From IMG/VR virus record IMGVR_UViG_3300033153_005382, positions 1-64,000 of that record: 64,000 nucleotides of DNA; one strand, given 5' to 3'. The notes under the pieces were generated by a model that worked only from the letters and a program-made list of their open reading frames with translations, did no database searches and was not told the DNA's origin. A program made the position numbers and the translations under genes. Below, in pieces: positions 18,793-53,290 of the stretch; the stretch's first letter is position 1; every line of letters starts with the position of its first letter. This stretch comes from a virus.

Positions 18793-19732
18793 ACTTCTTC
18801 CCTCCCACGACAGCATGACAGGACGCTACCAAACCAGCCCTCCCAGTATCGTAAAACGGGTCTGAAAAACAATCTATGACGAAACATGCGTGACTTGTAT
18901 TCTTACCTCCTTTCAATGCTACCGATGTCATATACGACAACACCAATCGTCGAATGCCTTCGGCATTCTCTTCCAACGCTTCTATGCCTGACAAAATCTT
19001 TGCTACTTCACTCCATCCTTTCCGTCCCATCAAAGCTCTAGCGACTTCGATTGCATCCTTCTTTGGTTCCGTTCTCGATAACACGTCGAGCTGGTCGTTT
19101 ACTGGTACATTGATCACCTGAGCCAACATCACCAACGCTTTCCTAGCACTGCCTTCAGCAAGATCGGCAATCTTGTCCGAAACGTCCTCCCCCAATACTT
19201 TCCCCTCTTCATGTGCTACACGATTGATAAGCTTCTTCAAATCACTCAGACCAATCGACTTCAAATCAACGATCGTTGCCCTAGTCTTAATCGTCACCCT
19301 TAGCTTGTGAGGATCGGTCGTACAGAACATAAAGTACACCCAATCAGGAGTATCCTCCAACAACTTCAAAAACGCTCCCTGGGCATCGCTAGTTAACTTG
19401 TGTGCCTCGTCACACAACCACACACGACAACCTCCTCCCATAGGCCTCATTCCCCATCGTTCCTCAATACGTCGAACCATATCAATTCCACGTTGACTAG
19501 CAGCATTCACTTCGATAAAGTTGCTTCCTGTACATTTCAACTTACTGACAAGGATCCTAGCCAATGTAGTCTTGCCTACACCAGACGGTCCCGTAAACAA
19601 CAAGAAGTGCGGAATGCCATCGCCTTTCCACATCGACCCCAATGACTTGACCGCTTCGACCTGTCCTACAATTTCCTTGATATTACACGGTCTGTGTCTC
19701 CTGTACAATTCGACAGCGTTCTCCTCACTCAT
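18785..19732 (-). CDS. DNA polymerase clamp loader ATPase (DnaX/gp44-like)
   Basis: 315 residues. ELYRRHRPCNIKEIVGQ is the standard N-terminus, Walker A is LFTGPSGVGKTT, Walker B is VWLCDEAHKL, CTTDPHKLRVTIKTR carries sensor 1, and GSARKALVML is sensor 2. The usual SRC arginine-finger motif appears as an IKTR variant, and the zinc module of DnaX is missing. It opens the phage sliding clamp (22539-23561) for loading. No separate small subunit is seen. Confidence 0.88.
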   Translation of the reverse strand: MSEENAVELYRRHRPCNIKEIVGQVEAVKSLGSMWKGDGIPHFLLFTGPSGVGKTTLARILVSKLKCTGSNFIEVNAASQRGIDMVRRIEERWGMRPMGGGCRVWLCDEAHKLTSDAQGAFLKLLEDTPDWVYFMFCTTDPHKLRVTIKTRATIVDLKSIGLSDLKKLINRVAHEEGKVLGEDVSDKIADLAEGSARKALVMLAQVINVPVNDQLDVLSRTEPKKDAIEVARALMGRKGWSEVAKILSGIEALEENAEGIRRLVLSYMTSVALKGGKNTSHACFVIDCFSDPFYDTGRAGLVASCHAVVGGKKYG

Positions 19733-21099
19733 ACCAATATCTCCTCCTTCTCAAACCAATTCGTTCTCGCTAACTCAAACTCCACCTCCAGCGGAGTTAC
19801 AACCCAATCCCAATGATCCCGTACATCCTGAGTCATTACCTGCTTCGCCTTGGCTATCCAATCGTCCAACTCAGACTCATGCACATCGGCCACTATGCTA
19901 TCGTGAATCTGCCCTATGATCCTAGTCCTTGCTTTTGTTTTTATCTGCCACTTCACCATCTGAATCAACGACCACAACAACAGATGAAACGCAGATCCTT
20001 GTATCGGTGTATTGTACAAATTATTACGCTTGTATACACCTTGACAAACAAATCCCGTCATCAACTTGAACCAACCCCTCTCTTGGTACTTCTTCCACCA
20101 CTTCTCCTTCCGATCTGACCACTCACTGAATCGTCCATGGAACGATTCCTCCACTTCCTTAATATGCTTTTCGAATGTTCCTTCCACTGGACTTTCATTC
20201 GGATCGCACACACCTCTACTTCTGATCCCTTTCTCCTCGAGATACTTGTACAAACCCATTTTCCCGTCGGCTGTCTCCAGCCCCGCATTCTCAATACTTG
20301 CCCATAAATTCTTCGCACAGTTGACGTAATACGATCCATACAACTGTGGGAACACAAACTGATTCTTGGCATAGAACCTAGCCAACTTCGTAACTTCTTC
20401 CATGAGGTAACATTCACCTGCCATGTCCCGATGTATATCTAGCGTCGGGTCTGACGCATACGCAATCATTGACGAATCCTTCCAAAAACATGCAGCCACT
20501 CGAAACTCCAATGCTCCGAAATCTACCTCCACCAACACATGGCCATCCCTCGGGATGAAACATTTCCTTATCAACCTTCCGATCTCTTCATCCCTGATCG
20601 GAATGTTCTGGAAATTCGGCGAATCGCAACTAGACCGATACGTCCTGGCCAAATGCAAATTGAACGACGGATGCAAGTACCCCTCACAAACCTCACGCTG
20701 TACTCCTTTCAGATATGTTGTCTGCAGTTTCTTCTTCTTCTCCAACTCTACGTATGTCTCAATAAACGGGTGATCGATTTCCTCTAACACTGCTGCGTCC
20801 ATCTTCTCACGTCCCTCCTTGGTCTTCTTGGTTGACTTGAAACCTAGCTCCCGAAACAATACTTCTCCCAACTGATAACGACTTCCTAAATGCGTTTTAC
20901 TTCCCCATCTCCGTTTCCACATTGCCCACACCTCCGTCGCCTTCAGTTCCTCAGTCATAAACTCGATGTCAGCTTTGACCTCTTGTATTGTCTTCTCCAG
21001 TCGATCCGTGTCTATTCTCATACCTGAATACTCTACTTCAGCTAGCGCTAACGACCCTTCATGAACTAGCTGATAAGCATCCTTAGTTACAGGTCTCAT
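19729..21099 (-). CDS. Family A DNA polymerase, polymerase domain only
   Basis: 456 residues containing only palm, fingers and thumb. Motif A is LVEVDFGALEFRVA, motif B is RFYAKNQFVFPQLYGS and motif C is GQIHDSIVADV (HDS instead of HDE). There is no 3'-5' or 5'-3' exonuclease domain; those are separate genes at 21333-22535 and 14783-15622. It overlaps the clamp loader gene by 4 nt. It is probably the replicative polymerase of the phage. Confidence 0.92.
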   Translation of the reverse strand: MRPVTKDAYQLVHEGSLALAEVEYSGMRIDTDRLEKTIQEVKADIEFMTEELKATEVWAMWKRRWGSKTHLGSRYQLGEVLFRELGFKSTKKTKEGREKMDAAVLEEIDHPFIETYVELEKKKKLQTTYLKGVQREVCEGYLHPSFNLHLARTYRSSCDSPNFQNIPIRDEEIGRLIRKCFIPRDGHVLVEVDFGALEFRVAACFWKDSSMIAYASDPTLDIHRDMAGECYLMEEVTKLARFYAKNQFVFPQLYGSYYVNCAKNLWASIENAGLETADGKMGLYKYLEEKGIRSRGVCDPNESPVEGTFEKHIKEVEESFHGRFSEWSDRKEKWWKKYQERGWFKLMTGFVCQGVYKRNNLYNTPIQGSAFHLLLWSLIQMVKWQIKTKARTRIIGQIHDSIVADVHESELDDWIAKAKQVMTQDVRDHWDWVVTPLEVEFELARTNWFEKEEILV

Positions 21100-21121
21100 A
21101 CTAAACCTTTCGAGTTAGACC

Positions 21122-21343
21122 CTATCCTTCCTCATCTTCCTTCTGTATCCTAGACGATCGTAAATACCTCCTAAGTTCGTCGACGAACTTTTGATCGGCG
21201 TACCATTCTAACATATCCAATGGCACTTGATCTACCGGTTGACCTTTGAACCTTCCAAACGGTATTGGCTGCTTCCCGAATCGCCTCGACTCCGCTACTG
21301 TCATCCTGCTTGACTTTTCCTTGATCTCATACTCACCACACAT
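21122..21343 (-). CDS. DUF3820-like small protein
   Basis: 73 residues. PIPFGRFKGQPVDQVPLDMLEWYADQ is the DUF3820 signature (putative quorum-sensing-regulated virulence factor fold), often found attached to or next to exonucleases. It lies between the polymerase and the UDG-exonuclease genes, so a nuclease accessory role is a reasonable inference. Confidence 0.7.
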   Translation of the reverse strand: MCGEYEIKEKSSRMTVAESRRFGKQPIPFGRFKGQPVDQVPLDMLEWYADQKFVDELRRYLRSSRIQKEDEEG

Positions 21344-22535
21344 TGGCCAACTCTTTCTTCTGGACTTCAGCTACTCGATACTCCACTAGAGAATCTAAAC
21401 CGTTATATAACAACAACTCCCTCAACGGAATCTCACCGATTCTATTCCTTCCGTTCCCTCCTTTTGCAGATAAATATGGCCCTATCCGCTCATCCCAAGA
21501 CGGAAACCCTAACCTCACATAAGCCTGAAACTTCGCAGACGTTATGCCTTGCCGATTATCCAACACATGTGCTGCTTGCATACAATCATGATCCCAACTT
21601 CTAACTCCGTATCCAAACTCGGCTTTCGTCCACCGCTCCTCAAACTTAATGTTCGATCCTATCTTCCTCACTTCGGACCTCAACAAACTCCCTGTGGCCT
21701 CTCTTGCAGGTGACTCCCACGGATATGCTATCGTCCGACGACCGTCGAAACATATTGAACAACTCACAATCCGTGCATCCTTCCCATCCGGCTTCAATCT
21801 ATCTGTTTCGTAGTCGAACGCAATCTGTTTACTTCGGTTTCCTTCCAATTGAATGATCTCCGATGCTGTCTCAGGACACTCGTATATCTCCACTTCCTTC
21901 TTCCAATCTGGAACCTCCTCCCATGGACTCCCAACGAGATCAAACGCTTCCTTCAAATGACGCAAAAAAATTACAGAGACAACTTTATTCTTCTTCTCCT
22001 CCCTCATTATGTACGACGAATGCCAGGTCGGACATACCCAAGCATTCAGTCGTTGTGACGGTATACGCCACCCGACCCAACGTCCTACTGGTCCTAGATC
22101 CCTCGACCAGTCTTCTGTTATCAATGACTTGACTGCCGACCCGCCTAGCAGAACGATCGTCTCCGGCTTCAACTCCTCAATCGTTCTGTCTAGGTTAGGC
22201 CGACAGCATTCGATGTATGTATCAACGATCTCGTTGCTTGGTGGTCTACATATTACAGCATTAGTCTTCCAACAATCTTCATCAAGATCCACTCCAATCT
22301 TGTCCAACTCGTCTCTGAACCGTTGGCCGGCTTTTCCTACCAATTGCACTCCTTCGTCATCTTCGATGCTGCCTGGCGCTTCAGCTACGACTAACACTTT
22401 TCTTCGTCCTTCTCCAGAGACCGGCATCTTAGGACTGCGACATTTTCTGTACAACCCACACTCCCCACACCTAGGTCGACGATTCTTGAATGGACTTTCC
22501 TTGAGCACCTCCTCACTGCTGAAAAACCCCTTCAT
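21333..22535 (-). CDS. Fusion of family 4 uracil-DNA glycosylase and 3'-5' exonuclease
   Basis: 400 residues, two domains. Residues about 20-200 match Fe-S UDG family 4: Cys23, Cys26 and Cys32, VLVVAEAPG, GKAGQRF, NAVICRPP and WHSS near residue 171 (HPS position). Residues about 235-400 match the DEDD proofreading domain of PolA: FDYETDRLKP, GSNIKFEERW, and NGLDSLVEYR. This looks like the N-terminal part of an SPO1-type UDG-exo-pol polymerase cut away from its polymerase domain. It may guide proofreading and uracil sensing for the split polymerase. Confidence 0.8.
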   Translation of the reverse strand: MKGFFSSEEVLKESPFKNRRPRCGECGLYRKCRSPKMPVSGEGRRKVLVVAEAPGSIEDDEGVQLVGKAGQRFRDELDKIGVDLDEDCWKTNAVICRPPSNEIVDTYIECCRPNLDRTIEELKPETIVLLGGSAVKSLITEDWSRDLGPVGRWVGWRIPSQRLNAWVCPTWHSSYIMREEKKNKVVSVIFLRHLKEAFDLVGSPWEEVPDWKKEVEIYECPETASEIIQLEGNRSKQIAFDYETDRLKPDGKDARIVSCSICFDGRRTIAYPWESPAREATGSLLRSEVRKIGSNIKFEERWTKAEFGYGVRSWDHDCMQAAHVLDNRQGITSAKFQAYVRLGFPSWDERIGPYLSAKGGNGRNRIGEIPLRELLLYNGLDSLVEYRVAEVQKKELANVW

Positions 22536-28701: not shown

Positions 28702-28716
28702 ATCTCTAGCTTCCTC

Positions 28717-28854
28717 CTATCCTATCCTAGACCGATACCGATACCGAGACTGAGACCGAGACCAAGACCAAGACCGAGACCCAGACCAAGACCGAGACCA
28801 AGACTGAGACCTAGACCGAGACTGACACCGGGATCCTTCAAATAGGTATCTCAT
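28717..28854 (-). CDS. Ser-X dipeptide repeat protein B
   Basis: 45 residues: MRYLFEGSR, then alternating Ser with Cys/Gln/Arg/Trp/Gly, ending YRSRIG before TAG. AGGAG lies upstream of the ATG. The gene sits directly before queE and its stop region provides the queE ribosome site. It is one of five tandem copies. Confidence 0.45.
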   Translation of the reverse strand: MRYLFEGSRCQSRSRSQSWSRSWSGSRSWSWSRSQSRYRYRSRIG

Positions 28855-28863
28855 CCTAATCTC

Positions 28864-28959
28864 CTATCGAGACTGAGACCAAGACCAAAACCAATTCCGA
28901 GACCGAGACCAAGACCAAAACCGAGACCAAATTCTAGATCCAACAATGAGATACCTCAT
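28864..28959 (-). CDS. Ser-X dipeptide repeat protein C (divergent copy)
   Basis: 31 residues beginning MRYLIVGSR. Codons 2-4 are AGG TAT CTC against AGA TAC CTA in the other copies: three synonymous third-position changes. This supports selection on this reading frame. The repeat is short and degraded (WSRFWSWSRSRN). Confidence 0.5.
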   Translation of the reverse strand: MRYLIVGSRIWSRFWSWSRSRNWFWSWSQSR

Positions 28960-28968
28960 CCTTATCTC

Positions 28969-29178
28969 CTATCGAGACTGAGACTGAGAACAAGACCGAG
29001 ACCCAGACCGAGACCAAGACCGAGACTGAGACCGAGACCAAAACCAAGACCAAGACCAAGACCTAGACCGAGACCAAGACCAAGACCAAGACCAAGACCG
29101 AGACCCAGACCAAGACCGAGACCAAGACTGAGACCTAGACCGAGACTGAGACCGGGATCCTTCAAATAGGTATCTCAT
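28969..29178 (-). CDS. Ser-X dipeptide repeat protein D
   Basis: 69 residues, MRYLFEGS followed by about 30 Ser-X pairs (X mostly Arg, Trp, Gln or Gly). It has the same AGGAGATAAGG leader and TAG end as the other copies. An alternative frame from TTG would give Leu-Gly repeats but has no ribosome site. Confidence 0.5.
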   Translation of the reverse strand: MRYLFEGSRSQSRSRSQSWSRSWSGSRSWSWSWSWSRSRSWSWSWFWSRSQSRSWSRSGSRSCSQSQSR

Positions 29179-29187
29179 CCTTATCTC

Positions 29188-29349
29188 CTATCGAGACCCA
29201 GACCCAGACCAAAACCGAGACTGAGACTGAGACCGAGACTGAGACCAAGACCGAGACTGAGACCAAGACCGAGACCAAGACCAAGACCGAGACCCAGACC
29301 CAGACCAAGACCGAGACCGAGACTGGGATCCTTCAAATAGGTATCTCAT
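29188..29349 (-). CDS. Ser-X dipeptide repeat protein E
   Basis: 53 residues, MRYLFEGSQ then Ser-X pairs, ending SGSGSR. The leader, stop and spacing are identical to copies D and F, so the unit was duplicated as a whole gene. Confidence 0.45.
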   Translation of the reverse strand: MRYLFEGSQSRSRSWSGSGSRSWSWSRSWSQSRSWSQSRSQSQSRFWSGSGSR

Positions 29350-29358
29350 CCTTATCTC

Positions 29359-29610
29359 CTATCGAGACCGAGACCAAGACCGAGACCAAGACCGAGACCA
29401 AGACCGAGACCTAGACCGAGACCAAGACCAAGACCAAGACTGAGACCCAAACCAAGACCAAGACCAAGACCGAGACTGAGACCAAGACTGAGACCTAGAC
29501 CGAGACCGAGACCTAGACCGAGACCAAGACCGAGACTGACACCAAGACCGAGACCTAGACCAAAACCAAAACCGAGACTGAGACCAGGATCCTTCAAATA
29601 GGCATCTCAT
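29359..29610 (-). CDS. Ser-X dipeptide repeat protein F
   Basis: 83 residues, the longest copy, starting MRCLFEGSW (Tyr to Cys at position 3), then Ser-X pairs to WSRSR. It is the first copy in transcription order, about 45 nt after the upstream gene. A short orphan block of hexamers (29625-29650) lies between them without its own start codon. Confidence 0.45.
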   Translation of the reverse strand: MRCLFEGSWSQSRFWFWSRSRSWCQSRSWSRSRSRSRSRSQSWSQSRSWSWSWFGSQSWSWSWSRSRSRSWSRSWSRSWSRSR

Positions 29611-29655
29611 CCTAATCTCCTATCGAAACCGAAACCCAGACCGAGACCGAATACA

Positions 29656-29991
29656 TCACTTCTGCACTCTCGGCAGGTCATGGTCCCATAGGGTCGCATC
29701 AGTGATACACCCCCGAGAAATGATGACATCGTTAACAAATGGCTCGACTTCATTGAAGTCACCAGTCCGCAGAGCATCGGAAAACCTCCCCGTGTCTGCA
29801 ATCCAAGCGGTATCACTCAACACAATATCCGTATCCGTGATAGCTTTCACACGTCCGGTGTAATACATTGTCACCGTTCGGATTAGATAGCATTTCCCAA
29901 TCTCAAATGAATGGGACATCCCTTCTCGCAACAGCGACTCTCCTTGCAATTCCCGAACCAGCATAACTACATCTTTCAATTCGATTGACAT
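29656..29991 (-). CDS. Conserved phage hypothetical protein
   Basis: 111 residues. GKCYLIRTVTMYYTGRVKAI, SDTAWIADTGRF and RGCITDATLWDHDLPR form a pattern I recognise from uncharacterised phage or bacterial proteins with a compact beta fold. Function unknown. It stands between queD and the repeat mini-genes, and its stop lies in the frame that continues into the orphan hexamer block. Confidence 0.65.
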   Translation of the reverse strand: MSIELKDVVMLVRELQGESLLREGMSHSFEIGKCYLIRTVTMYYTGRVKAITDTDIVLSDTAWIADTGRFSDALRTGDFNEVEPFVNDVIISRGCITDATLWDHDLPRVQK

Positions 29992-32760: not shown

Positions 32761-33771
32761 TCAAAACACCTCCGTGGGACTGACTAGTCCTATTTCGTAT
32801 CCCAACGCTACTAACGCTGTATCCACGTCAGTCTGCGTGACTGGCTCACCGAAGGCCGACCAGCCCCTCTCCCCTAACCAATCTTCGACCTGTTCAGCCA
32901 TACTCTTATTTGTATTACTCCTCCCCTCATCTTCGTCTCGACCTTGCTTGGCTTGTCTGAACGCTTCCCAGTTCGTATACAAATCATCGGCCTTTCGTAC
33001 CCTCGGCACGTATGTCTTTCCGTAATTCTTACCTAACCACTTCAACACCTGACTGATCTCGGTGGCTGGTACGTTTCTGTCCTTCCGTAAGTTTGACAGC
33101 ACGATGGTCAGTCGATTCAATGACACTGGTCTCTTTCCATTCCTCGGTGCGACGATGTCTGCATCATGCTCGATCAGTATCGATCGTAACTCTGCTGCCC
33201 TTTGTCTGTCTCCCTCGGCGTTAGCTTTATCTAGTGGGGGAACCGAGGCGGCCGGAGGCCTGCCTCGCTTTCTTTTTCCTTTATTGTTATTATTTATATT
33301 GTTATTAATATGGAATACCGGATTTTCCGGAATTAGTTTACCGGGTTTTACGGAATTAGTATCCCCGGATTCTACGGAATTAGAATCTGGGGTTTTACGG
33401 AATTGGCCTTCGACATTTTCCTTCTCTTCAAGCAGTATATCTACTAGCTTTTTGTCGTTCAACTTGAAGTGTCTCTTCGGTGGCAATCCCTTTCTTTTCG
33501 ACTTGACGAGTTTCAACTTCGTCAGTTCTCTCAAAACCCTTGTCTGTCTTTCCTGTGTCAACTGTATCTCGTCTTCCATCTTTTTGATGGTACAGAAGAA
33601 CCAACCTTCTTCGTCTGAACCAACTGCCTTCCGATGGTTCAGCAGATACTGCATGACTACTCCGAGGTCGAGACCTATTGCCTCGATCAGCTTGAACGAT
33701 ACAGGAAACCATCTCCCTGTGAATGACAGATCGGTCAAATCGCGATCGTTGACGGTTCGGGTGGCACACAT
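32761..33771 (-). CDS. Replication initiator, winged-helix, lambda O-like
   Basis: 336 residues. Residues about 20-115 form a winged-helix region (LTQERQTRVLRELTKLKLV). Residues 118-180 are low complexity (Ser/Asn/Pro then NNNINNNN and a basic patch) and are encoded by the DNA that carries four iterons and an AT-rich stretch. The C-terminal part (LNRLTIVLSNLRKDRNVPATEI) is helical and probably meets the helicase. Gene order with DnaB-like helicase resembles lambda O-P. Confidence 0.75.
   Translation of the reverse strand: MCATRTVNDRDLTDLSFTGRWFPVSFKLIEAIGLDLGVVMQYLLNHRKAVGSDEEGWFFCTIKKMEDEIQLTQERQTRVLRELTKLKLVKSKRKGLPPKRHFKLNDKKLVDILLEEKENVEGQFRKTPDSNSVESGDTNSVKPGKLIPENPVFHINNNINNNNKGKRKRGRPPAASVPPLDKANAEGDRQRAAELRSILIEHDADIVAPRNGKRPVSLNRLTIVLSNLRKDRNVPATEISQVLKWLGKNYGKTYVPRVRKADDLYTNWEAFRQAKQGRDEDEGRSNTNKSMAEQVEDWLGERGWSAFGEPVTQTDVDTALVALGYEIGLVSPTEVF
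33281..33406. other. Predicted replication origin: four iterons plus AT-rich region inside the initiator gene
   Basis: Four copies of a sequence close to GGNTTTTACGGAATTAG have their GGAATTAG cores at 33329, 33352, 33376 and 33399, spaced 23-24 bp (about two helical turns). Next to them, 33281-33310 is a stretch of 30 bases almost all A or T, suited to unwinding. The placement inside an initiator gene copies the lambda O origin layout. Confirmation by replication mapping is not available here. Confidence 0.7.
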
Positions 33772-46392: not shown

Positions 46393-46959
46393 CTAGAATT
46401 CGCCAACGAAATTGATCTCGTCGACCAGCCTGATTTCAGCTTCTTCCTCGTCCATTCCATACCCACCTACCATGCTCATCCAATATTGCATCAACCCATG
46501 ATAATAATCCTCCCAGGTCAACTCTGGCTTGGGTTTCCCTCCTTTGCTAGGCCATCCGTCATACGGCTCTGCCAGATGCTCACAACCGATGTTCGTCAAA
46601 GCCCGACAGCAGAGTTCCTGACAATACTCGTCGCCACTCTCACACCTCTTCTTCAGTTCCCACAAGCTGCTAATCGGCTTGTACTGAAGAACCTTGAACC
46701 GCACCCAAAAGTACGAGTTCTTCCTCACTCCTTCGCTGCCTTTGAACGTGGCCCAATGATCGCCTTTGTCGACGACTTGGATCCTGAACAACTTCCTGAT
46801 GTCCTTCTCTAGATCCTCCTCCGAGCGTCCATGCTTATAAAAGTATCCTCTCCGAACTGTCCACTCCCCTTCCTTCCGGTGGTTCGTGACATGTCCCTTG
46901 TCGTCATTGGAACCGAAATTCTCATGCAAGATCGTCCTGATTTCCTTAGCCGTTTTCAT
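46393..46959 (-). CDS. Hypothetical protein
   Basis: 188 residues. The N-terminal part (KTAKEIRTILHENFG) is helical, the middle beta-rich (YFYKHGRSEEDLEKD, FWVRFKVLQY), and a Cys cluster (CESGDEYCQELCCRALTNIGC) follows. The end is acidic. Unknown family. Confidence 0.55.
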   Translation of the reverse strand: MKTAKEIRTILHENFGSNDDKGHVTNHRKEGEWTVRRGYFYKHGRSEEDLEKDIRKLFRIQVVDKGDHWATFKGSEGVRKNSYFWVRFKVLQYKPISSLWELKKRCESGDEYCQELCCRALTNIGCEHLAEPYDGWPSKGGKPKPELTWEDYYHGLMQYWMSMVGGYGMDEEEAEIRLVDEINFVGEF

Positions 46960-47053
46960 GACTCATCTCCTTGGATTGTGCCCGCCTACCCTCGGACGGT
47001 TCGTGGAAGATCGACTCTGTCTCACTCTCCTTCAGGGTTTCGAGGTAACTCAT
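46946..47053 (-). CDS. Possible 35-residue protein
   Basis: ATG at 47053 opens MSYLETLKESETESIF, ending HENG at 46946 and overlapping the next gene start by 14 nt. No clear ribosome site is seen, so confidence is low. Confidence 0.3.
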   Translation of the reverse strand: MSYLETLKESETESIFHEPSEGRRAQSKEMSHENG

Positions 47054-47610
47054 TCAGCATGGGGTACCAATCCCCACAGACCCTTAAGGGCTAGCTCGGG
47101 CAGGAGTCGAATTCGACTCCTCACATAACGCCTGGTCCGTCGGGTTCTGAGAGTCTGTGCTCTGTGCTGTTTCCCAAACCTACTGAAGGCTTGCTCCGTG
47201 TTCGATAAGGTACGAGCAGAACGTTTACTGGAGGCCTGCTCCGTGTTCAACGTTTGCTGATTGACTGAGTCTACTGGAGGCCTGCTCCGTGTTCAATCTC
47301 AGCCGAGAACCCGACCCGCTACTTGCGTCGCGTTAACTAGATCCTGCTAGTAATACGTATCCGACTTACTCCTGCGGTGGGTCAGGGGACTGGTGGAAAT
47401 GCATTATCCCGAGCTATTTGGTTGCTTTCCCGGCTGGAAACTGGGCTTATTGACAATGCCAGTTATTGCGGGGGATCGACTGGGGGCCTGTCCCTTGTGT
47501 CTTGGCTGGGCGGGATGTTATTCGCTACTTGTGCCACCGCCTCAGCCCCCGTTTTCCTGGGGGACCTCGTCTTGGTCGATGCCGTCTGAATTGTGAAAGA
47601 ACCTGGCCTT
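47054..47610. other. Long non-coding region
   Basis: No supported gene in about 550 nt; open frames on both strands lack ribosome sites and family resemblance. It contains a perfect 20-nt palindrome (AGGAGTCGAATTCGACTCCT, 47102-47121), nearby short self-complementary parts (CCCTTAAGGG at 47082-47091) and three direct repeats. It would form the long 5' leader of the transcript from the promoter at 47652-47680, or a separate RNA. Confidence 0.5.
47181..47296. repeat. Three direct repeats of 25 bp
   Basis: TACTGGAGGCCTGCTCCGTG-type repeats lie at 47181-47205 (four differences), 47226-47250 and 47272-47296, spaced 45-46 bp. Three copies with 20-bp gaps of unrelated sequence do not make a CRISPR array; they may be protein-binding sites or hairpin-forming RNA elements. 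Confidence 0.75.
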
Positions 47611-47644
47611 GCCCCCTCCCCTGCCTCCCCCCTCCCCTGCCCCG
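47611..47644 (-). other. G-quadruplex-forming tract
   Basis: The minus strand has G runs of 4, 4, 6, 2, 4 and 5 separated by one to three bases, a very strong quadruplex pattern. It starts at or next to the predicted transcription start of the promoter at 47652-47680, so the RNA would begin with a quadruplex. Confidence 0.7.
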
Positions 47645-47651
47645 CATCTTA

Positions 47652-47680
47652 ATTATATACCTATATCCTATGACTGTCAA
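47652..47680 (-). promoter_or_regulatory. Perfect consensus sigma-70 promoter
   Basis: TTGACA (47675-47680), 17-nt spacer and TATAAT (47652-47657), an exact consensus. Predicted start near 47645, reading toward 46959. It is the strongest promoter I see in the window and lies about 100 nt after a terminator, in a gene-free region. It is likely an early promoter read by unmodified host RNA polymerase. Confidence 0.85.
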
Positions 47681-47780
47681 TAGGCTTTAACCTGTTGGTA
47701 TATAAAGATTTACGATACGACTTTTCGTTAATTTCCATGGATTCAGACTGCTTTTAGGGGTAAACGCATTATAATAACAC

Positions 47781-47809
47781 AAAACCCCACACCTTTGGGG
47801 GGTGTGGGG
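47781..47809 (-). terminator. Rho-independent terminator
   Basis: A 9-bp stem (arms 47785-47793 and 47801-47809; CCCCACACC with GGTGTGGGG) is followed on the minus strand by TTTTGTG. It would end transcription from the 47850-59832 gene block. Confidence 0.8.
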
Positions 47810-47849
47810 CTATTATTCCCTTGATTTCTGTACTACTAATGTATTTCTA

Positions 47850-48053
47850 TTACCGTGGGTTCCGGCCCGGTTTCGTTTGTCTATTACTCCTAAATACGTC
47901 CACTTCTTCCTTCTCCAACAGTCGCCTGCCTAACACACAAATGGCCGTCAATCTTCCGTCGGCCAAAAAGTGAAACACCCTTCCATAACTCACTCCGATT
48001 CTCTCGGCTGATTCTTTTACAGTCAAATACTCCCGTCCTCCGACCTCTATCAT
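47850..48053 (-). CDS. Excisionase/MerR-type DNA-binding protein (HTH_17)
   Basis: 67 residues. YLTVKESAERIGVSYGRVFHFLADGRLTAI is the helix-turn-helix plus wing of HTH_17 excisionase-like proteins, and RRLLEKEEVDVF completes the domain. It is the last gene before the terminator and probably regulates phage transcription; no integrase is visible nearby. Confidence 0.8.
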   Translation of the reverse strand: MIEVGGREYLTVKESAERIGVSYGRVFHFLADGRLTAICVLGRRLLEKEEVDVFRSNRQTKPGRNPR

Positions 48054-48329: not shown

Positions 48330-48591
48330 CTTCTTGCTCCCATTCTATCTTAACATTCCCCATATGCTTTCGCCACAACGAATCAAACTTCGTCGCACTT
48401 ACACAACTACTCCTAGGTACTACTATCTCAGTCATGGCCCCAGTCACGGACGTGTAATATCCATGCAACATCAATCCCACTGCTCCTACGACCCTGACCG
48501 TTGCGTATTCATCCCCTCTGCGAATCCGCAATTCGTTTCCCTCCTCCTCTGATAACCAATCCCTGATCCTAACTTTGAGCCAACGAAGCAT
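48250..48591 (-). CDS. Hypothetical protein
   Basis: 113 residues from the ATG at 48591 (AAGGAG upstream). WLKVRIRDWLSEEEGNELRIRRG, then beta-rich YATVRVVGAVGLMLHGYY, then a charged tail that overlaps the next gene by 80 nt. No family. Confidence 0.55.
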   Translation of the reverse strand: MLRWLKVRIRDWLSEEEGNELRIRRGDEYATVRVVGAVGLMLHGYYTSVTGAMTEIVVPRSSCVSATKFDSLWRKHMGNVKIEWEQEDEDKDTVKNHSSKVCRLFRWKRKGGT

Positions 48592-49216
48592 AACATCTCC
48601 TTCCCTCGTTCTCCCCATAGAACCTCTCAATTATAGATGACTCACTCTCCTTGACCCTAGACAACAGATCCTTGTTCCACTTCACTTCTACAAAACTGTG
48701 AGAACATGGGCCTTCATCTATTACCTGACGCCTAAATCCGACTAGTCCTAACAAGTCCGATAGATCACTGCTTATGGTCTCGTACCGTCCTATCCAATCA
48801 ACCCACTCTCCCTGATCCGGACCAACATATGATTCAATCAACCTAGTATACCACAATGGGTACCTCTCCAACATTACAAACACCCAATCGGCAAACGTTC
48901 CCTTTTTTGTTTCCCTGAAAACATCTAAAGCAGTAGCCAATGGATGCCACTTCACACACTTCGTCCTAACCGCAAACTTAGGCGGCTTCATACTAAACCA
49001 CATCCATACAGACTCGTAATACGATACAGGGTGTCTCACAAACGTCGCTACCATCTTGACATCTACCATCCGATGGCGATGCTTATGAGCATACAACCCC
49101 CACTTATCCGCACTCCATTGCACTTGAGCTTTATACCACGACTCGGCTTCGATGTTCCAGTTTGCTAACGATCTATTCAACCACTCCGTCCCTGTCCGCG
49201 GGATGTACTGGATCAT
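48569..49216 (-). CDS. Sulfotransferase-like protein
   Basis: 215 residues from the ATG at 49216. QYIPRTGTEWLNRSL sits at the PAPS 5'-phosphosulfate loop, and VATFVRHPVSYYESVW is the 3'-phosphate-binding RHP motif. Such enzymes move sulfate from PAPS to sugars or proteins. Weak overall similarity to Sulfotransfer_2; part of the glycan cluster. Confidence 0.6.
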   Translation of the reverse strand: MIQYIPRTGTEWLNRSLANWNIEAESWYKAQVQWSADKWGLYAHKHRHRMVDVKMVATFVRHPVSYYESVWMWFSMKPPKFAVRTKCVKWHPLATALDVFRETKKGTFADWVFVMLERYPLWYTRLIESYVGPDQGEWVDWIGRYETISSDLSDLLGLVGFRRQVIDEGPCSHSFVEVKWNKDLLSRVKESESSIIERFYGENEGRRCYASLAQS

Positions 49217-49230
49217 TAACCCTTTGCTTC

Positions 49231-49950
49231 TTATGAACCTTGACAAGTTCTCCTCCCTTCGACTATAAACTTGAACTTGCTCCAATCTGTCCACGTATTG
49301 ACAGATAACGGACACTTGGATACGTGTATAGCCTTAATCTCAATCCTACCCTCAATCCACGTCAACTGTTCCAACGACTCCTTTCTAGCATAGCTCGATA
49401 CCTGGTTGCCATTATTATACCACCACTCCAGAGCTACAGGATCCATCGCATACACTCCAACATGAATTTTAGCTCCCCGCATCCAAGCTCGGCTAAACCA
49501 ATGACATCTGCCATATGATTCCGTTACCTTCACAACACTATACCGTGCATAATCCTCGATTTCTGACGGTCCTACTATTGTATTAACTCCTCCATTTACC
49601 GAACAGGCCATCTTAACCTGCTCCGGCTGAATAAACGGCTCATCAACTTGCCAATTGACGATCCTCCTCCAGTCCGACAACCCACCTATTTCGTGAAACA
49701 GTCCTGCTATTCGACTTGTACCACAATCAAACTCACGATGTTCTGTGGTCTTGACAGTAATACCCTTTTCCTTACACAAATCCACTACCTCATTGTCTCC
49801 TGTCACAATCCATACGTTTTTCGTGAACTTGCTTGCCTGACTATGCGTCCATTCTAACAGTGTCTTTCCTCCTGCCACCAACATGGGTTTTCTTGGCAGC
49901 CTCGTGCTTTGATTCCTTACGGGAATTACAACTAGATCAGAAGTACTCAT
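49231..49950 (-). CDS. kdsB: KdsB-like CMP-sugar synthetase (cytidylyltransferase)
   Basis: 239 residues. VVIPVRNQSTRLPRKPMLVAGG is the nucleotide loop, NWQVDEPFIQP equals NVQGDEP of KdsB, HVGVYAMDP equals HIGIYGY, and LEQLTWIEGRIEIKAIHV completes the set. KdsB-type enzymes load Kdo or a related sugar acid onto CMP. It would supply an activated sugar for the neighbouring glycosyltransferases. Confidence 0.8.
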   Translation of the reverse strand: MSTSDLVVIPVRNQSTRLPRKPMLVAGGKTLLEWTHSQASKFTKNVWIVTGDNEVVDLCKEKGITVKTTEHREFDCGTSRIAGLFHEIGGLSDWRRIVNWQVDEPFIQPEQVKMACSVNGGVNTIVGPSEIEDYARYSVVKVTESYGRCHWFSRAWMRGAKIHVGVYAMDPVALEWWYNNGNQVSSYARKESLEQLTWIEGRIEIKAIHVSKCPLSVNTWTDWSKFKFIVEGRRTCQGS

Positions 49951-50488
49951 ATCGTTCGCACAGCTCCTCTTCCCTATGAACTATTTGTTGTCGTAGCCTC
50001 CGTACGTCCTTTGCCATAATTACACGCCTCCTCAACCGAGCCGGTATCTCAACCTCCTTCATTACGTCTAACACTCCTTCGTTGATTCCCAATGACGAGA
50101 AAAACTCATCCACATTCCATGGGAAATCTTCGCACCTAAGACACACTTCAGCTTTGTACTCCTCCAGTATGTCTACTAACTGCACTTCGCTTTGCATCAA
50201 GTAGCTTTGAACAAACTCCATCCACCCTGTCCTTCGCAGTCCCCTAAACTGCTCGACGCAACATCCTACACACTGTCTCTTGCCTTTTGTATACTTGTAA
50301 ACCTCTCTCAGCCAATCAAACGGATGACGAACTAGTCCTACTCGAAACGATTGGCTTCGTCTTGACGGTGGTCTATGCAAATCCCCTTCCCCTTCTTCCT
50401 TCAATCCTGCTGTAAATGCAGCTTTAATAAACCACTCCCCACCTGTTCCAATTGGACAGGCAAATTCAAACAATCCAAAGTCTATCAT
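49937..50488 (-). CDS. Sulfotransferase-like protein
   Basis: 183 residues. PIGTGGEWFIKAA lies at the phosphosulfate loop, and VGLVRHPFDWLREVYKY carries the RHP motif. It is short for the family. It overlaps the KdsB-like gene by 14 nt. Confidence 0.55.
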   Translation of the reverse strand: MIDFGLFEFACPIGTGGEWFIKAAFTAGLKEEGEGDLHRPPSRRSQSFRVGLVRHPFDWLREVYKYTKGKRQCVGCCVEQFRGLRRTGWMEFVQSYLMQSEVQLVDILEEYKAEVCLRCEDFPWNVDEFFSSLGINEGVLDVMKEVEIPARLRRRVIMAKDVRRLRQQIVHREEELCERYEYF

Positions 50489-50491
50489 ATA

Positions 50492-50701
50492 TCACCCCAA
50501 CAATACCTCATCATGGTTCATCTGATTCAACTCCTTTACCTCCCTCCTCCTAACCCACGTCGCAACTAATTCTTTCACCTCCTCACATGGCACATCAACT
50601 ACTTTCCGATTCGTCTTCCTGTCTATTATAGCCACGGTACCCTCGAAGCTTTCCTTAGCTATGAACTTGAACTTCTCACATTCTACGATCAACATCATCA
50701 T
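50492..50701 (-). CDS. Hypothetical small protein
   Basis: 69 residues; three ATG codons in a row (50701, 50698, 50695) after GAGAGG. LIVECEKFKFIAKESFEGTVAIIDRKTN is beta-rich, followed by a helical tail. A TATAAT hexamer (50625-50630) lies inside the gene. Unknown role. Confidence 0.5.
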   Translation of the reverse strand: MMMLIVECEKFKFIAKESFEGTVAIIDRKTNRKVVDVPCEEVKELVATWVRRREVKELNQMNHDEVLLG

Positions 50702-50705
50702 CCTC

Positions 50706-51251
50706 TCACTTTCTAAACCACCATATATCACCCTTCCTGATGTACTCCAACTTATATCCATCTTCCTCAACAAATTCATCAACCGGTATTCGAACCTCTG
50801 ATTCCTTATGCCCTAATCCCAAATAGTCATGTCCGATTGCAAATCCACCTCCTTTCACTTTTCTTACCCAACATCGCAAATCCTCCTCAACATCCTCAGC
50901 TTTATGGCTTCCATCGATGAACACAAAATCCAAAGACCCATCCTCGACTGTCTTGGAAGCCTTAGTACTTGACTCCCAAATAACCTCATACCGATACCCC
51001 GGAAATGCCGACAACCTCCGAATTGCTTCATCATGACATTTCGACATCTTCTCAACGCTGTAGTTAACAGTGCCTCCTCCGTGTCCTCTCTCCCATATAT
51101 CAACCAGCATCAATCGAAGTCCGGGGAACTCCTTCAACAACTTCGCTGATGTTCCTGCCTTCCAAACTCCAATTTCCGCACCTACCAATGGTCCACCTGG
51201 GAACTCCCTCTGCAACAACTTGTACAAAGACCGTCGGTACTTTGCCATCAC
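50706..51251 (-). CDS. Class I SAM methyltransferase (Methyltransf_24-like)
   Basis: 181 residues. GAEIGVWKAGTSAKLLKEFP is motif I, LMLVDIWE follows, and FVFIDGSHKAEDVEEDLRCW is the Methyltransf_24 acid-His segment. This family methylates sugars or small molecules. It probably methylates the glycan made by the surrounding genes. Confidence 0.75.
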   Translation of the reverse strand: MMAKYRRSLYKLLQREFPGGPLVGAEIGVWKAGTSAKLLKEFPGLRLMLVDIWERGHGGGTVNYSVEKMSKCHDEAIRRLSAFPGYRYEVIWESSTKASKTVEDGSLDFVFIDGSHKAEDVEEDLRCWVRKVKGGGFAIGHDYLGLGHKESEVRIPVDEFVEEDGYKLEYIRKGDIWWFRK

Positions 51252-52000
51252 AATCCCCTCCTTTGCTTTGGACTCTCGTAAACCCGTTTCGGATGTCTAA
51301 GCCTATAAACTCCCAGCAGATCGACCTTGGTAATCAGCCCCTTTTCCCGACAATTCTTTCGATACCTCATATCGCATCTACAACTCACAAACGTTCCATC
51401 TGGCGTCGGTGTCTGAAACGTCTTATCGTCTGGCAAGTAGCCTTCCGACCTTGCAAAATCTCCCCTCACTATCTGAACCCCACCGATAGCCTTATTCAAT
51501 TTCTTGTGAACAAACTCTTCCGGTTTGATGTCGATTGTCTGCGGATATCTGTGTATCTGTTCTACCCTCGCCGTTCCTATATCCCAATCACGATGTATCA
51601 TTGTGTTCTCCGGATACACCATTACAGTTCCATCTGGCCAGTCCAACCCTCCCAATGATTCCAAACACCCTTGGTGAAACACATAATCAACATCGGTAAA
51701 CCACACTATATCAGCCCGTGTATTCTTCGACGCTATGTTCCTTCCGATAGCCCGCCGTCCTACTCGACCGGGACTCAACGTTACTACCTGCAAATCCAAC
51801 CAACCATGGTGCCGAACAAAGTAGTTCAGTACTGCTCTCGTAGCCCTATCCTCTTCCGGACAACACACAATGGTAATTCGTACATCAACCTCCCGCTTAG
51901 CAGGATAATACAACACCAACGAACTCAATTGGTACATGAGCAACGAATCGTAATACGGTCGCTCAATCGACTGACAATGAGACACTATCTCTATCAACAT
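51248..52000 (-). CDS. GT-A glycosyltransferase
   Basis: 250 residues from the ATG at 52000. Beta-alpha-beta start, IGRNIASKNTRADIVWFTDVDYVF with the DxD motif, and GGVQIVRGDFARSEGY as the acceptor side. Resembles family 2-like enzymes. Overlaps the sulfotransferase gene upstream by 38 nt. Confidence 0.75.
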   Translation of the reverse strand: MLIEIVSHCQSIERPYYDSLLMYQLSSLVLYYPAKREVDVRITIVCCPEEDRATRAVLNYFVRHHGWLDLQVVTLSPGRVGRRAIGRNIASKNTRADIVWFTDVDYVFHQGCLESLGGLDWPDGTVMVYPENTMIHRDWDIGTARVEQIHRYPQTIDIKPEEFVHKKLNKAIGGVQIVRGDFARSEGYLPDDKTFQTPTPDGTFVSCRCDMRYRKNCREKGLITKVDLLGVYRLRHPKRVYESPKQRRGL

Positions 52001-52643
52001 CAAACTCCCTTTCGAACTTGTAGCCAAACCGATCTACATCCCTTTGGTAATATCTCCCTACTATCTCTACCAACTCCTCGTCGTAGTATGACTGATACCT
52101 CCTATGCTTTGACGTCCTACTGACAGGAAGCGGCACGTATGTCTTTCCGATCTCATCACAGAACCTTCTCCAATCCTCCTTCAACGTTTCAAATCGTAAT
52201 ACCTTATCGACGCCCCATTTTAACCAGGCTACCTGTGGGTTCACCTGTGAAAAACTCCGAACGTTTCGACTACTTACCGGCTTCACAAACCTACCCGTCG
52301 ATACTGTCCTTGCAAACAAATCGAAGGTCTTCAAACTTTGACTTGATCCTCGCTTCGGTGACCTCCTAGGACGAAACTCCGACAGATAAGCATACAGACT
52401 AACCAACCTATCCCATGGATTCCGTACCACTGCCAACTTGATCGACCTATCCCACCACTCCTGTGATATATACTTCTTTCGATAGTACCCTGCAGCTACG
52501 TGCCTCAAATCCGTAAAATCACACCACTCGTCCCAATCCTGTGGCCTCCTTCGCTGGTAACCTCCTCCGTTCTTCTTCATCCACTCCGTTATGGACGTTC
52601 CTGCTGTCTTCGGTATGTGAATGAATATCACCTGCTTGACCAT
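51963..52643 (-). CDS. Sulfotransferase (Sulfotransfer_2 family)
   Basis: 226 residues from the ATG at 52643. VIFIHIPKTAGTSI is the 5'-phosphosulfate-binding loop and LAVVRNPWDRLVSLYAY the 3'-phosphate-binding motif; both are intact, as in carbohydrate sulfotransferases. A 73-bp block is identical to the neighbour at 52646-53290. It transfers sulfate from PAPS, probably to a glycan. Confidence 0.88.
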   Translation of the reverse strand: MVKQVIFIHIPKTAGTSITEWMKKNGGGYQRRRPQDWDEWCDFTDLRHVAAGYYRKKYISQEWWDRSIKLAVVRNPWDRLVSLYAYLSEFRPRRSPKRGSSQSLKTFDLFARTVSTGRFVKPVSSRNVRSFSQVNPQVAWLKWGVDKVLRFETLKEDWRRFCDEIGKTYVPLPVSRTSKHRRYQSYYDEELVEIVGRYYQRDVDRFGYKFEREFDVDRDSVSLSVD

Positions 52644-52645
52644 AC

Positions 52646-53290
52646 TCAACTCCCATAACAATACTCAAATCGTTCTACGTCCTCCCGATAGAATCTACCT
52701 ACCTTTCTAACCAAATCATCAGTATAATACATCCAATAATCCCTACCTCGTCTCGACTTGTTCAACTTCCCCAACTTGGCTTGCGGCAACTCCGACTGCC
52801 TACAAAACTGACACCACTCATCCTCCAAATTCTCAAAACGAATCAAGACATCAACTTGCTTCCGCAGCCATTCTACCTGTGGATTCGCTTGTCCAAACTC
52901 CCTACAAGCTCTTCCACTAACTCGTCCTACCCATCTAGAACATCCCGAACATACCTCGGTGGCAAATTCCTCAAAACTTGTAAGATGTACATTTGACCGT
53001 TTCCAATGGCCCCGAAACCTAATCCCTTTCCAATAGGCATACAGACTAACCAACCTATCCCATGGATTCCGTACCACTGCCAACTTGATCGACCTATCCC
53101 ACCACTCCTCGGTGATATGTCCTTTCGATAAATACCACTCTGACGACAAATGGCCTAAGCTCGTAAACCAACATCCTTTGTCCCACTCCTTCGGTCTGTA
53201 TTTCTGAAACGTTCCGTTCCTTCGTCCATACGACTCAATGGACGTGCCTGCGCATCGCGGTACATGGACAAATATCACCTGTCTTGTCAT
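52646..53290 (-). CDS. Sulfotransferase (Sulfotransfer_2 family), paralog
   Basis: 214 residues. VIFVHVPRCAGTSI and LAVVRNPWDRLVSLYAY are intact. It is a tandem copy of 51963-52643 with low identity elsewhere but an identical 73-bp block around the 3'-phosphate motif. The loop carries RC in place of KT, so substrate preference may differ. Confidence 0.88.
   Translation of the reverse strand: MTRQVIFVHVPRCAGTSIESYGRRNGTFQKYRPKEWDKGCWFTSLGHLSSEWYLSKGHITEEWWDRSIKLAVVRNPWDRLVSLYAYWKGIRFRGHWKRSNVHLTSFEEFATEVCSGCSRWVGRVSGRACREFGQANPQVEWLRKQVDVLIRFENLEDEWCQFCRQSELPQAKLGKLNKSRRGRDYWMYYTDDLVRKVGRFYREDVERFEYCYGS

Follow-up and report, generated by a model that had tools for sequence, protein, structure and literature searches.

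What function does a gene-free stretch that carries a terminator, a promoter and a set of repeats have in the genome of an uncharacterised, 85-kb phage? The full virus record (IMGVR_UViG_3300033153_005382) is 84,861 bp long, and the window, the whole 64,000-nucleotide stretch of DNA analysed here, comprises its bases 1-64000. Gene prediction by codon usage over the 84,861-bp record gives ~112 genes, all of them on the minus strand with zero strand switches. The sequence-only reading had described 750 gene-free bases and had seen in them an early control region or a non-coding RNA. The stretch is indeed free of genes, and it is longer than described, extending over 890 nt (46960-47849). We consider it probable, at roughly 0.7, that 46960-47849 serves a lytic-type phage as its early control region, in which a host sigma-70 promoter would be followed by a leader of ~685 nt.

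Terminator, promoter and G-tract

The earlier reading gave no strand for the features of the stretch, hereafter the island. All those that have a direction act on the minus strand, which is the strand of all genes. What the DNA itself shows is which elements are present, on which strand, in what order and how rare they are, along with the genes to either side. An intrinsic terminator at 47811-47783 (minus), composed of an 11-pair stem with seven G-C pairs and the tail TTTTGTGTTATT, follows the helix-turn-helix (HTH) gene that ends at 47850. Its stem scores on the plus strand too. This terminator probably closes the late-type gene block lying upstream.

About 100 bp downstream of this strong terminator and on the same strand lies a perfect sigma-70 promoter, TTGACA-17-TATAAT (47680-47652, minus; TTGACAGTCATAGGATATAGGTATATAAT), which matches the consensus at 12/12 positions with a spacer of 17. 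No other 12/12 site exists in the 84,861-bp record, and 0.03 are expected per shuffled genome. The predicted transcription start, 5-7 bases past the -10 hexamer, is 47645-47647 (minus). At this predicted start, from about +3 to +34 on the non-template/RNA strand, we find a G-quadruplex-type tract with five runs of 4-6 G (47643-47612, minus; GGGGCAGGGGAGGGGGGAGGCAGGGGAGGGGG). Nowhere else in the record do four runs of four or more G stand so close together, and 0.01 such tracts are expected per shuffled genome. The terminator, the exact promoter and the quadruplex tract at the transcript start that the sequence-only reading had claimed are thus all present, the latter two far beyond chance.

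A G-quadruplex (G4)-forming non-template sequence downstream of the start raised the output of T7 RNA polymerase in vitro, via R-loops (PMC7341879). The island resembles this system in having a G4-forming non-template tract just downstream of the start; however, the published system is an in vitro one that uses T7 RNA polymerase and not the bacterial enzyme, and what is known here is the sequence arrangement only. We scanned viral contigs for perfect promoters with two G-runs, each of four or more G, within the next 4-14 nt, using C-runs as the control. The arrangement was found in 84 viral contigs, versus 22 for the C-run control, and after clustering of related sequences the counts were 26 for G-runs and 12 for C-runs, to be read against a same-strand G:C background of 14:9. 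The promoter-then-G-run arrangement therefore recurs in unrelated phages, not clearly in excess of background. In several of the 84 contigs, the promoter and G-runs stand before long ORF-poor stretches.

Gene blocks on either side of the island

On the minus strand, gene content suggests that the island is the boundary between a structural or late-type block upstream and a replication or early-type block downstream. The upstream block (minus) contains genes for the portal (79.7-76.9 kb), head morphogenesis (~75.1-74.3 kb) and the major head protein (72.0-70.4 kb), followed by further genes, a cytidylyltransferase gene, a sulfotransferase gene and, as its last member, the HTH gene (47850..48053, minus). 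The latter encodes a 67-aa excisionase-type HTH protein that matches TIGR01764 at 29.2 bits (cut-off 28.8), its other matches of the same type being weaker. The sulfotransferase and cytidylyltransferase-like genes are clustered at 48569-53290 of the window (minus), between the structural and the early genes, which suggests surface glycan modification.

The downstream block opens with a gene (46393..46959, minus) for a 188-aa protein of no known family. It is followed along the minus strand by a DUF3150-like gene and an AAA ATPase, further on by helicases, primase, initiator, DNA polymerase, clamp loader, SSB and UvsX, and beyond the replication genes by terminase and a tail-fibre-like gene. 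A family A DNA polymerase is found in two ORFs, 22535-21333 and 21099-19729 (minus; window 19729-22535), separated by ~230 nt and matching consecutive parts of phrog_17 (476-829 and 834-1235); a split gene and an intervening sequence are candidate readings. Positions 28702-29700 of the window (minus) are very repetitive, with steps of 12 and 18 bp and a strongly deviant AT skew (0.24), and probably encode a low-complexity repeat protein.

Early control is the best-supported reading because the island lies at the late/early block boundary, where the first block ends in a terminator and the second begins with the only perfect promoter; the labels early and late are assigned here from gene content alone. 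As expected of a sigma-70 early promoter, the hexamers are consensus with a spacer in the 16-18 range, and the promoter stands at the same-strand head of replication/early-type genes. The island resembles sigma-70 phage early promoter regions in that a consensus promoter heads the early block and a terminator parts it from the preceding block. It differs in that its one perfect promoter is followed by a G4 tract at the start and by ~685 nt of leader with three repeats. As an early control region, the island is real, well delimited and ordinary in kind, with repeats that have no known match.

From this arrangement we infer early timing and possible roles for the G-tract and the repeats. The terminator would stop transcription arriving from the late/structural block, and unmodified host RNA polymerase would read the consensus sigma-70 promoter, starting the early block. 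The G-rich transcript start may hold the non-template strand open as a G4 or R-loop, giving more output or protecting the 5' end. The transcript would then run via the ~685-nt leader into the gene at 46959 and on into the replication genes, while a regulator would bind the leader repeats, as DNA or RNA. The island would thus be a compact promoter-leader unit that marks the probable early transcription start of a poorly known phage group and parts its late from its early gene blocks. Were a regulator to bind the repeats, or were output in a bacterial system raised by the G-tract, the island would be a natural case of G4-assisted early transcription in a phage.

The leader and its repeats

Since the minus strand has no terminator from the predicted start to the gene at 46959 (none was found within 46960-47645), the RNA is best taken as a ~685-nt untranslated leader (46960..47645, minus). 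The AAGGAG ribosome-binding site of the 188-aa gene lies at 46967..46972 (minus), 7 nt before the ATG at 46959. At 685 nt the leader is long for a plain promoter region, which counts against the early-control reading. It has no coding signal: codon scores are near or below zero in all island frames versus 0.06-0.18 for neighbouring genes, no convincing family match was found for the longer island ORFs, and no small leader ORF has a ribosome site, save the real start at 46959. These scores and the missing family match argue against a decayed or unrecognised gene, as does the 46-bp repeat spacing, which breaks the frame. In favour of such a gene, which we find hardly credible, an Arg/Gly-rich peptide of 40 aa would be encoded by a frame that begins at the predicted start, and part of the repeats is spanned by a frame of 66 aa.

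A free-standing non-coding RNA, the other half of what the sequence-only reading had proposed, is likewise unsupported because the leader has no internal terminator, searches of Rfam at gathering and permissive thresholds gave chance-level matches only, and the folding energy of the whole leader lies at the mean of the shuffles (z 0.05). Stable or conserved structure, or an Rfam match, would be expected of such a gene and neither was found. The early-control half of the proposal stands as the best-supported reading.

Three direct repeats lie in the leader. In the order of the RNA, they occupy 47269-47296, 47223-47250 and 47178-47205 (minus), each 28 nt long by the repeat tool. The outer copies are 96% and 79% identical to the middle one, the third being the diverged copy (79%), and the spacings are 45 and 46 bp. 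Three repeats of 25 bp at this spacing had been claimed, and the three copies of ~28 nt recovered here are far beyond chance: the 23-nt repeat core, with at most 3 mismatches, occurs 3 times in the island versus 0 in 100 shuffles, and no other copy of it was found in the whole record. A CRISPR-like array was rejected, the spacers being just 17-18 nt. The 20-nt perfect palindrome that had also been noted is present at 47102-47121 (AGGAGTCGAATTCGACTCCT). In RNA it would form an 8-bp hairpin (-13.5 kcal/mol, z -3.4); alone it is weak and modestly beyond chance, as a palindrome of at least 20 nt arises somewhere in 6/100 shuffled genomes.

The leader could alternatively be a structured cis- or trans-acting RNA, a tandem array of extended hairpins that bind a phage or host factor and, for example, cause RNA polymerase to ignore downstream terminators. 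Each 45-nt unit would be one hairpin, having in common an inner ACGGAG-CARGC-CUYC-A-GU and differing in the outer stem of each copy. If the inner hairpin is kept constant, each copy's own flanks together give -38.6 kcal/mol, whereas shuffled flanks average -24.5 (p 0.002; p 0.01 versus random genomic flanks), and the other five ways of assigning flanks to copies all do worse; the stable hairpin of the palindrome also favours this reading. However, copies 1 and 2 account for most of the flank effect; copy 3 favours a different fold, and the pairing of its outer arms does not exceed the average. The array (z 0.5), like the whole leader, folds no better than shuffles, and since the plus strand gives folds of similar quality, there is no pointer to RNA. 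The hairpin model and its test were also devised after inspection of the sequence, and the Rfam and terminator results given above tell against this reading too. We regard a structured RNA as unlikely and the repeat hairpin model as a suggestive lead.

Antitermination sites are found in early leaders, as with lambda nut and HK022 put. The island is similar in that its early transcript would contain, in the untranslated part, elements that may form hairpins, but it differs in having three copies, 350-470 nt from the start, with weak structural support and with no N-like protein identified. It is highly improbable that the leader represents a novel type of early leader in phages, in which the transcript is capped by a G-quadruplex and a tandem array of three protein-binding RNA hairpins, with outer stems that differ yet remain paired, controls read-through of the entire early block. 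Within an early control region, the most likely role of the repeats is to be recognised by a regulator, as DNA or RNA. The 67-aa HTH protein could, as a speculation, be their ligand.

Replication, recombination and distant relatives

Among the known ingredients of transcription-dependent replication origins are direct repeats, AT-rich DNA and a G-rich tract near the promoter, and the island has all three. The repeats could accordingly act as iterons, the AT-rich 47640-47780 as an unwinding element and the G-rich transcript as an R-loop primer. We nevertheless judge an origin in the island to be very unlikely: a DnaA box is absent from it, the sign of the GC skew is unchanged across 47.6 kb, and a better origin candidate is predicted at 33317-33404. 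There, an array of four 23-24-bp iteron units (3.8 copies, consensus CCGGATTTTACGGAATTAGTATC) lies inside a minus-strand, lambda-O/DnaD-like initiator gene (33771-32761) whose N-terminal part is matched by initiator profiles. The units recur at 23, 24 and 23 bp without keeping the codon register throughout, lie in the part of the gene encoding the segment after the profile-matching one, and were found nowhere else in the record. The iterons of lambda O occupy a corresponding place in their initiator gene. Iterons next to or inside an initiator gene, the mark of an iteron origin, are therefore found at 33317-33404 and not at the island. A promoter-like site matching at 11/12 positions (34058-34031, minus) precedes the initiator gene.

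Excisionases bind direct repeats, and a TIGR01764-type HTH gene lies directly upstream of the island. The repeats and palindrome could on these grounds be a recombination or attachment site bound by the neighbouring protein. Such excisionase-type HTH proteins are, however, often plain regulators, and neither a tyrosine (PF00589) nor a serine (PF00239) recombinase, as would accompany an attP site, was found in the record in searches with positive controls. The chance of an attachment site thus appears minimal. A partitioning site was rejected, as no ParB was found in the record with a working control.

The early-control reading gains no support from conservation of any element, as far as the relatives that could be found are concerned. 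No meaningful relative of the island DNA was found by blastn in phage and plasmid collections, and neither 2.9 million viral contigs nor 84,980 genomes contain the exact degenerate repeat core. The phage population is represented by further contigs at 100% identity, none of which, among those retrieved, reaches the island. Apart from these, the best relatives found via the flanking and conserved proteins are distant and lack the repeats, those of the AAA ATPase showing 32-46% identity.

One of them, Tunturiibacter phage Tunturi_3 (PP885686.1), encodes an AAA ATPase relative of 34% identity, and upstream of its gene 1,660 nt of non-coding DNA contain a terminator, direct repeats and a promoter matching at 10/12 positions. 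Tunturi_3 differs in that its repeats (13 and 18 bp) are unrelated ones, its DNA shows no similarity to the island, and its genes lie on both strands. Many strong promoters are spread across the same region rather than one standing at its head, which would also count against the early-control reading. The analogy is thus a loose one. In the Tunturi_3 stretch (78677-80336), a 13-bp unit is repeated four times in tandem and occurs again as a distant inverted copy; there are also two 18-bp repeats and a DnaA-box-like site, TTATCCACA. In another relative (G004), several near-perfect promoters at ~11.7-42.4 kb have TTGACAAAGCTTT in common and form a repeated promoter cassette.
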